A stretch of DNA of 64,000 nt, taken from contig NZ_NFJQ01000006.1 in the NCBI RefSeq assembly GCF_002159945.1, positions 1 to 64,000 on the forward strand. Reading direction: 5' to 3'. Both the position numbers and the translations under genes were made by a program. This document shows, one piece after another, positions 9,380 to 10,719 of this stretch (position 1 is its first letter; each line of letters opens with the position of its first letter). The notes beneath the pieces are model-generated. The model made no database searches. It was not told the origin of the DNA and saw only the letters and a list, made by a program, of their open reading frames with translations. This stretch comes from Cloacibacillus sp. An23 (lineage in GTDB: Bacteria > Synergistota > Synergistia > Synergistales > Synergistaceae).

Positions 9380-10099
9380 CTACTGTCTTGCGGAATAGAC
9401 GCCGCGTCCGTGCCCGGCGCTCGTTGAAAAACGCATCGCCGCCGCGCCGCCGGCCGCGTCGCGTTCCGCGCGCAGCAGCCGCACTTCTTCCTCAAGGCGG
9501 GCCAGCCGGGCCTCAAGCTCCGCCGTGTAGGCTTCGCCGCCGGTCCGGCGCGTAGGAACGCCGTCTATCTTCACCACCTGCGCGCGGACGCCGGCGACCG
9601 TCGAATTTTCCGGCACGTCGCGCAGCACGACGCTGTTCGCGCCTATCTTTGAATTCGAGCCTATCGTTATCGGGCCGAGTATCTTCGCGCCACTTCCGAC
9701 GAAAATATTGTCGCGGAGCGTGGGGTGGCGTTTGTGGTCGCGTTCGTTGCCGGTCGCGCCGAGCGTGACGCCGTGGAAGAGCGTGACGTTCTCGCCGATC
9801 TCCGCCGTCTCGCCTATGACGACTCCCGCTCCGTGGTCGATGAAAAGTCCTGGGCCTATCTTGGCGGCCGGGTGTATCTCTATGCCCGTCCACCAGCGCA
9901 CGAAAAGCGAAAGCAGCCGCGGAAGCACGGGAATATGCAGCGTCGAGTGCATGAAATGCAGCCCGCGGTACGCTGTCACGGCGAGGAAGCCCGGCGTACA
10001 GAGGACGACCTCGAAAAATCCGCGCGCGCCGCCGGCTATGGACGGGTCGTTCCTCTTAGCCGCGAGATAGTCGCTCCTGATCATCCTCAATGCGTTCAT
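9380..10099 (-). CDS. cysE: Serine O-acetyltransferase
   Basis: 239 aa. It makes O-acetylserine from serine and acetyl-CoA, the first step of cysteine synthesis, in the cytosol. Residues about 65-175 are a left-handed beta-helix of hexapeptide repeats with the SAT landmarks G-I-E-I-H-P, I-D-H-G-A-G-V-V-I-G-E-T and V-T-L-G-A-T-G. The C-terminal ~55 residues (E-A-R-L-A-R-L-E-E-E-V) are predicted coiled coil, longer than in many SATs. The ATG has AGGAGGG upstream. The gene stands alone; no cysK is adjacent. Its ~190-nt leader encodes a Cys-Cys peptide and a terminator (see below), implying attenuation by cysteinyl-tRNA supply. Confidence 0.95.
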   Translation of the reverse strand: MNALRMIRSDYLAAKRNDPSIAGGARGFFEVVLCTPGFLAVTAYRGLHFMHSTLHIPVLPRLLSLFVRWWTGIEIHPAAKIGPGLFIDHGAGVVIGETAEIGENVTLFHGVTLGATGNERDHKRHPTLRDNIFVGSGAKILGPITIGSNSKIGANSVVLRDVPENSTVAGVRAQVVKIDGVPTRRTGGEAYTAELEARLARLEEEVRLLRAERDAAGGAAAMRFSTSAGHGRGVYSARQ

Positions 10100-10116
10100 G
10101 TGCGTCCCTCCTGAAT

Positions 10117-10147
10117 AAAAAAAGAGAGCCTGCTTTCGCAGGCCCTC
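10117..10147 (-). terminator. Leader terminator (attenuator) before cysE
   Basis: On the minus strand a 10-bp stem (10147-10138 with 10133-10124) is capped by a GAAA tetraloop and followed by seven T (10123-10117). It lies between the cysE promoter and its ribosome site, so it can only act as an attenuator of cysE. Confidence 0.85.
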
Positions 10148-10188
10148 ACAAAAATATTACGATTTCCGGTTATGCTGTTCCGCCCCGG

Positions 10189-10224
10189 GCCGCGCTCCTA
10201 TGCGCGCGGCTCGCCGTCCGCGCG
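10189..10224 (-). promoter_or_regulatory. Mutually exclusive leader hairpins before cysE
   Basis: On the minus strand, hairpin 1 pairs 10224-10218 with 10209-10203 (7 bp). Hairpin 2 pairs 10210-10204 with 10195-10189 (7 bp). Both use the CCGCGC at 10209-10204, so they exclude each other. The GGCCC at 10191-10187, partly hidden in hairpin 2, is complementary to GGGCC (10145-10141) in the terminator arm and could act as an antiterminator. Functional roles are inferred. Confidence 0.5.
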
Positions 10225-10226
10225 GT

Positions 10227-10289
10227 TTATAAATCCGTGCGGCGACAACAGACGATATTAAAGAGGCGGATCGTATATATCGTACTCAT
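10227..10289 (-). CDS. Leader peptide with Cys-Cys-Arg-Arg motif upstream of cysE
   Basis: A 20-codon frame, ATG at 10289-10287 and TAA at 10229-10227, encodes a peptide ending V-C-C-R-R-T-D-L. Two adjacent TGT cysteine codons are codons 14 and 15. The A of the ATG lies 8 nt past the -10 hexamer, so the transcript should begin at or within a base of the start codon, making the frame leaderless. It is followed by competing hairpins and an intrinsic terminator before cysE. This is the layout of a ribosome-stalling attenuator sensing charged tRNA-Cys. Expression is not shown, but position, codon content and terminator agree. Confidence 0.75.
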   Translation of the reverse strand: MSTIYTIRLFNIVCCRRTDL

Positions 10290-10296
10290 AGCGCTT

Positions 10297-10325
10297 ATTC
10301 TATAACGAATATGGCGCGTTGGCAA
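10297..10325 (-). promoter_or_regulatory. Promoter of the cysE leader
   Basis: On the minus strand, TTGCCA (10325-10320), a 17-bp spacer and TAGAAT (10302-10297). The expected start site coincides with the leader-peptide ATG. Confidence 0.75.
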
Positions 10326-10690: not shown

Positions 10691-10719
10691 TTGACACTTC
10701 TCTCATCGCCCTGTATAAT
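10691..10719 (+). promoter_or_regulatory. Consensus sigma-70 promoter of the ylxM-ffh-rpsP run
   Basis: TTGACA (10691-10696), a 17-bp spacer and TATAAT (10714-10719): a perfect consensus, as expected for a highly expressed housekeeping operon. Confidence 0.9.

Follow-up and report, generated by a model that had tools for sequence, protein, structure and literature searches.

A predicted leaderless cysteine attenuator ahead of cysE in Cloacibacillus sp. An23 and its counterparts across the Synergistales

The cysE leader region

The locus of interest lies on the minus strand of the window (the whole 64,000-nucleotide stretch of Cloacibacillus sp. An23 DNA that was analysed). It consists of cysE and an upstream leader, in which a promoter, a short open reading frame (ORF), a series of pairing regions (numbered 1 to 6) and an intrinsic terminator follow one another in the direction of transcription:

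10320–10325, minus strand: promoter −35 hexamer TTGCCA, from a promoter scan (TTGCCA, TTGCAT or TTGCAA at 16–17 nt spacing is kept in 29 leaders)
10297–10302, minus strand: promoter −10 hexamer TAGAAT, 17 nt after the −35 hexamer and ending 7 nt ahead of the ATG
10227–10289, minus strand: leader-peptide ORF MSTIYTIRLFNIVCCRRTDL, 20 codons, predicted to be leaderless (ATG at 10289, stop codon TAA at 10229–10227)
10245–10250, minus strand: two Cys codons, TGT TGT, putatively regulatory (Cys codons are present in 53 of 53 distinct leaders)
10235–10248, minus strand: region 1, the end of the Cys codons plus the Arg codons, forming the 5′ arm of helix 1:2 (minimum free energy structure; helix 1:2 covaries in other families)
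10211–10225, minus strand: region 2, partner of region 1 (13 bp) or, via 10224–10218, of region 3 (minimum free energy fold and chain test; lies under a stop-codon ribosome in the geometry model)
10203–10210, minus strand: region 3, GCCGCGCG, partner of region 2 (stalled state) or of region 4 (terminating state), from the chain test
10198–10202, minus strand: loop motif CATAG of hairpin 3:4 (YATAN at the same place in 39 of 53 leaders)
10187–10195, minus strand: region 4, GCGCGGCCC, partner of region 3 or, as antiterminator, of the 5′ arm of the terminator (chain test and folding energies)
10124–10147, minus strand: intrinsic terminator hairpin (regions 5 and 6) with a GAAA loop, −19.1 kcal/mol
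10117–10123, minus strand: T7 tract of the terminator, read in the sequence
10107–10112, minus strand: cysE Shine-Dalgarno sequence AGGAGG, read in the sequence
9380–10099, minus strand: cysE, serine O-acetyltransferase, 239 aa (NF041874 EpsC/CysE, E 5e-61, over the cut-off; TIGR01172 cysE, E 5e-59)

The elements listed in the initial annotation—promoter, Cys-Cys-Arg-Arg ORF, hairpins, terminator and cysE ribosome site—were all recovered base for base on the minus strand. The leader promoter, TTGCCA-17-TAGAAT, scores 10 out of 12, and three such sites were found against 0.6 expected. Two Arg codons (CGC CGC) directly follow TGT TGT in the leader ORF, and the terminator reads GAGGGCCTGC-GAAA-GCAGGCTCTC. 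The neighbour on the other side of the leader, the ylxM-ffh operon, is divergent; the terminator at 10147–10124 can therefore serve this leader transcript only. Ahead of ylxM-ffh, and divergent from cysE, lies a consensus-perfect promoter (TTGACA-17-TATAAT, 10691–10719, plus strand).

Conservation and translation initiation across the Synergistales

The regions upstream of cysE were gathered from (i) named genomes, (ii) 53 genomes of the same family, and (iii) 188 Synergistota genomes. A short-form cysE is present in 59 genomes (57 Synergistales and two from outside the order), and deduplication gave 53 distinct leaders; these are related, non-independent sequences, and so counts of leaders exceed the true number of events. 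In 56 of the 57 Synergistales genomes, spanning 24 genera and nine families, cysE is preceded by a short ORF containing a Cys-codon run and by an intrinsic terminator. The Cys leader is missing at the short-form cysE of three of the 59 genomes: G003, and the two genomes from outside the order (G054 and G056). The G003 locus (L104) is that of a close relative that has kept the short cysE and lost the Cys leader, a case of natural loss.

Every one of the 53 distinct leaders carries adjacent Cys codons (C-I-C in family f9), with a run of at least three in 48 of them (C-I-C in two of these 48), and in all 53 the ORF and cysE are separated by an intrinsic terminator, with energies ranging from −13 to −34 kcal/mol. 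Relatives that keep the terminator without the Cys codons had been named in the initial annotation as evidence that would count against an attenuator; the comparison of cysE upstream regions gave the opposite result, with both elements kept throughout. Within the family to which the window belongs, Cys codons are TGT and TGC in a ratio of 58:23 while the amino acid is kept, which fits selection on codon meaning rather than on RNA sequence. The leader peptide of the sister species, Candidatus Caccocola (L002), is MSTILLNRRFDNVCCRRTEL.

Elsewhere, the pattern was not found: among 59 regions upstream of cysE in other phyla, none contains an ORF with three consecutive Cys codons (two occur in six regions, patternless), and running the RNA model on cysE upstream regions of other phyla gave no credible match. 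The longer serine acetyltransferase paralogs that were tested have no Cys leader. In families f1 (g10–g13) and f6 (g38), short CysE is replaced by such a longer paralog, which has no Cys leader and in most cases follows another gene. No Cys-run ORF was found upstream of cysK or cysM at the 30 loci checked, and in the 188 genomes the strong hits of a covariance model of the leader core were all cysE leaders, apart from an additional copy that precedes a truncated second cysE. The switch appears to be dedicated to cysE. The extra copy (L182, about 3743–3249, minus strand, contig 4 of G061) has an integrase-like frame nearby. At five loci from two families (L130, L132, L136, L121 and L123), a second Cys-rich frame (e.g., MPMEIDCPCTCKCKQTISRRCQKM) lies between terminator and cysE, in frame with cysE where checked; this is apparently an N-terminal CysE extension with its own ribosome site, or else a second sensor.

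The leaders differ in how translation of the ORF would begin. In 29 of them—27 from the family of the window and two from family f6—the −10 box lies 6–9 nt ahead of the ATG (9 nt in L107, 6–7 nt in the others). Anti-Shine-Dalgarno energies in these 29 leaders are mostly near 0 (+0.2 at the window ATG), and nearly all are without a Shine-Dalgarno sequence; the exception, L106, has both. In the other families, no promoter occurs at this spacing, and Shine-Dalgarno energies lie between −7 and −14 in nearly all leaders. Leaderless and Shine-Dalgarno-led leaders separate almost cleanly, and on a CysE tree of partial sequences with several weak forks, the leaderless label needs two changes, versus 18 for shuffled labels. 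The window ORF is predicted from sequence to be leaderless, its transcript beginning at or beside 10289. A general tendency to leaderless genes was considered and rejected: of the 51 other long frames in the window, none has a leaderless appearance, so the predicted leaderless start belongs to the leader and is not evidently genome-wide.

A cysteine-responsive attenuator could, hypothetically, operate here without being leaderless, if the transcript began further upstream and a Shine-Dalgarno sequence or an upstream start were used. The window does contain in-frame upstream starts, a TTG (giving 32 codons) and an ATG (giving 41 codons); however, these lie within or upstream of the promoter. 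Given, in addition, the Shine-Dalgarno energy of +0.2 at the ATG and a −10 spacing that recurs in 29 leaders but not in the Shine-Dalgarno-led families, we regard this arrangement as unlikely.

On balance, we favour a history in which one homologous cysteine attenuator has been inherited vertically with cysE through the order. Initiation would have switched between Shine-Dalgarno-led and leaderless once or twice while the codons, helices and terminator were kept, and one sublineage would have been rewired when its ORF grew longer and came to end within what had been the 3:4 loop. If this is true, the initiation mode is an exchangeable module of an attenuator.

Alternative RNA structures and ribosome position

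The leader RNA of the window folds better than dinucleotide shuffles (z −3.2). The two mutually exclusive GC hairpins proposed initially are present and overlap in region 3: CGCGCGG (10224–10218) with CCGCGCG (10209–10203), and GCCGCGC (10210–10204) with GCGCGGC (10195–10189). A further helix, 1:2 (10248–10235 with 10225–10211), was absent from the initial annotation and is built largely from Arg codons: TTGTCGCCGC-A-CGG pairs with CCG-C-GCGG-A-CGGCGA. Arginine as a second signal was considered and rejected; the Arg codons form an arm of helix 1:2, and other genera are without them. In this structural model, the Arg codons are structural elements, not sensors.

In sister families (f2–f7, f9 and f10), the Cys codons mostly adjoin a conserved arm, in the order TGTTGTTGTCGGTGGATC...TGATCCACCGCGGC...GGCTGCGG. 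Helix 1:2 of these families consists of CGGTGGATC with GATCCACCG, and helix 2:3 of CCGCGGCC with GGCTGCGG; the helices have region 2 in common and are mutually exclusive. Covariation was counted on 15 sister-family leaders, the window's own family being too diverged to add. In helix 1:2, 86.7% of cells are paired and 11 cells have changed on both sides; in helix 2:3, 90.8% are paired and nine have done so. For neither helix did any of 500 shuffles reach these values. Recognition of the window by the sister-family RNA model was tried and rejected: the window leader, which has two Cys codons only, scores 5.5 bits, reflecting strong sequence drift. Its presumed homology to the sister-family leaders rests on position and architecture.

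The chain test scores helices 2:3, 3:4 and 4:5 with their required overlaps against dinucleotide shuffles. The full chain is found in 45 of the 53 leaders, the window included (74% at p ≤ 0.05), and the window chain (CGCGCGG/CCGCGCG, GCCGCGC/GCGCGGC and GGCCC/GGGCC) has a p of about 0.02. Before the 3′ arm of the terminator exists, helices 2:3 and 4:5 of the window, with a bulged extension CGC/GCG, amount to −27.1 kcal/mol, versus −16.1 kcal/mol for 3:4 alone. The alternative-structure logic put forward in the initial annotation is thus supported by covariation (1:2 and 2:3) and by the chain test.

The 3:4 loop carries YATAN (mostly CATAG) in the 39 leaders noted above, against 2.8 expected and independent of reading frame; the motif is possibly a pause site or a protein site. 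Eight leaders from five related genera (L003–L006 and L088–L091) have a longer ORF, the stop of which lies 29–53 nt before the terminator, at the position of the YATAN loop. The six-segment chain was not found in these eight by the chain test. A simpler antiterminator was also rejected for this group, its duplexes being no better than shuffles in seven of the eight leaders; direct ribosome masking with a four-segment switch is plausible.

Toeprinting places the downstream edge of the ribosome ~12 nt from the first base of the A-site codon, and ribosome geometry was computed with this 12-nt edge as an assumption. For the window, the model puts the leading edge of a ribosome that has arrived at the stop codon at 10218, where the region 2 arm (10224–10218) ends; with the ribosome on the first Cys codon, region 1 alone is covered. 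In 41 leaders, with 21–30 nt between the first Cys codon and the stop, a ribosome at the stop covers a mean of 60% of the region 2 arm and a stalled one 0%; at least half of region 2 lies under the ribosome at the stop in 31 leaders, and region 2 is free in all 41 on a first-Cys-codon stall. An equilibrium folding calculation that masks the ribosome gives 0.57 (stalled) versus 0.42 (at the stop) for pairing of the terminator arm with upstream sequence (18 leaders up, one down), and the difference is 0.16 in leaders versus 0.04 in shuffles. For the window, this same crude model gives 0.50 stalled and 0.48 at the stop, which is almost no difference and the weakest point of the analysis; the case for the window hence rests on explicit structures and on kinetics.

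The leader combines codons for the pathway product in a short, presumably translated frame with a target gene from the same pathway, an intrinsic terminator, and computed mutually exclusive helices. Given these sequence features, ribosome-mediated transcription attenuation of cysE, with charged tRNA-Cys as the sensed signal, is in our view very probable. Transcription would begin at or beside the ATG at 10289, and a ribosome would load onto the leaderless 20-codon frame. Three outcomes can be envisaged: (i) with ample cysteine, the ribosome would get to the stop codon and cover region 2 (10224–10218), upon which 3:4 would pair, terminator 5:6 would form, and transcription would end ahead of cysE; (ii) with scarce charged tRNA-Cys, the ribosome would stall on the Cys codons and cover region 1, so that 2:3 would pair and the freed region 4 would capture the terminator arm (CGCGGCCC with GGGCC-U-GCG), allowing cysE to be transcribed; and (iii) with no ribosome, 1:2, 3:4 and 5:6 would form, helix 1:2 thereby making termination the default for an untranslated leader.

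Comparison with known systems

The closest known mechanism is that of the uORFC-8-2 motif before cysS in Rhodobacterales, for which ribosome-mediated transcription attenuation has been proposed on the basis of tandem Cys codons, hairpins and an intrinsic terminator (PMC8632094). The Synergistales leader shares the short tandem-Cys ORF, the hairpins and the terminator, but differs in target (cysE rather than cysteinyl-tRNA synthetase), in host (uORFC-8-2 being alphaproteobacterial), in its usually longer Cys runs, and in its predicted leaderless start in the window lineage. It therefore falls outside that motif, and it matched no Rfam family.

In actinobacteria, Cys-run leaders without terminators precede cys operons (PMC1262725), and leaderless Cys ORFs have been proposed in mycobacteria (PMC4633059); for the leaderless polycysteine ORFs of M. 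smegmatis, a cysteine response through translation attenuation was later reported (Canestrari 2020, as cited in PMC13236596). These upstream ORFs, leaderless in mycobacteria, resemble the Synergistales leader in being short, in carrying their Cys codons close to the end, and in preceding cysteine genes. Control could conceivably be of the same kind here—Cys-dependent translation attenuation or Rho-dependent control, with the terminator secondary—as the mycobacterial ORFs act without conserved intrinsic terminators (PMC1262725; Canestrari 2020, as cited in PMC13236596). We judge this to be very improbable: whereas a conserved terminator hairpin is absent from the mycobacterial ORFs (PMC1262725), all 53 Synergistales leaders have an intrinsic terminator and so lie outside that group. 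Moreover, the alternative helices aim at the terminator arm, not at the cysE ribosome site.

Marginally less likely still is direct binding of tRNA-Cys or a metabolite by a riboswitch or T-box, the short ORF being incidental. The RNA is highly structured and conserved, with its YATAN loop motif, and cysteine T-boxes precede cysE in Firmicutes; such a T-box shares both gene and signal (tRNA-Cys charging) with the attenuator proposed here but reads the tRNA directly, without translation. Rfam searches at gathering and permissive thresholds, the T-box covariance model included, nevertheless returned no match of any kind, and a riboswitch or T-box was rejected. Further, the leaders retain the start, frame, Cys codons and stop despite variation in the surrounding RNA, and changes between TGT and TGC are synonymous. 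Least credible of all is a functional small Cys-rich peptide beside an ordinary terminator: some leader peptides do work in trans (peTrpL; PMC7298713), but the Synergistales peptides share only their Cys codons, the remainder differing among genera and partly following the RNA arms (CRW, CRR, CMEG).

For the proposed attenuator, precedents with a leaderless start exist: trpL of Sinorhizobium meliloti (PMC7298713), ilvBNC of Corynebacterium (PMC11857589), and the leu, ilv and trp leaders of Streptomyces (PMC8079986). The trp, his and ilv attenuators resemble the cysE leader in that ribosome position sets the alternative helices, and differ in amino acid and gene; a relation in sequence was neither tested nor expected. 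The main text of a survey of intergenic regions in Thermovirga lienii (Synergistetes) reports no cysteine motif (PMC6429828). In the searchable literature, which included that main text, no earlier account of cysE attenuation in the phylum was found.

While the attenuator class is known, the target cysE, the phylum, the order-wide conservation, and the predicted natural exchange between leaderless and Shine-Dalgarno-led initiation are new. Cysteine attenuation has so far comprised actinobacterial leaders, mostly without terminators, and the predicted cysS motif, to which cysE and a new phylum are now added. The leader peptides and the covariance model can be used in annotating an order of anaerobes. 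Finally, nature provides in these leaders one switch with two predicted modes of ribosome loading, leaderless and Shine-Dalgarno-led, making the effect of leaderless initiation on the sensitivity and timing of attenuation testable.
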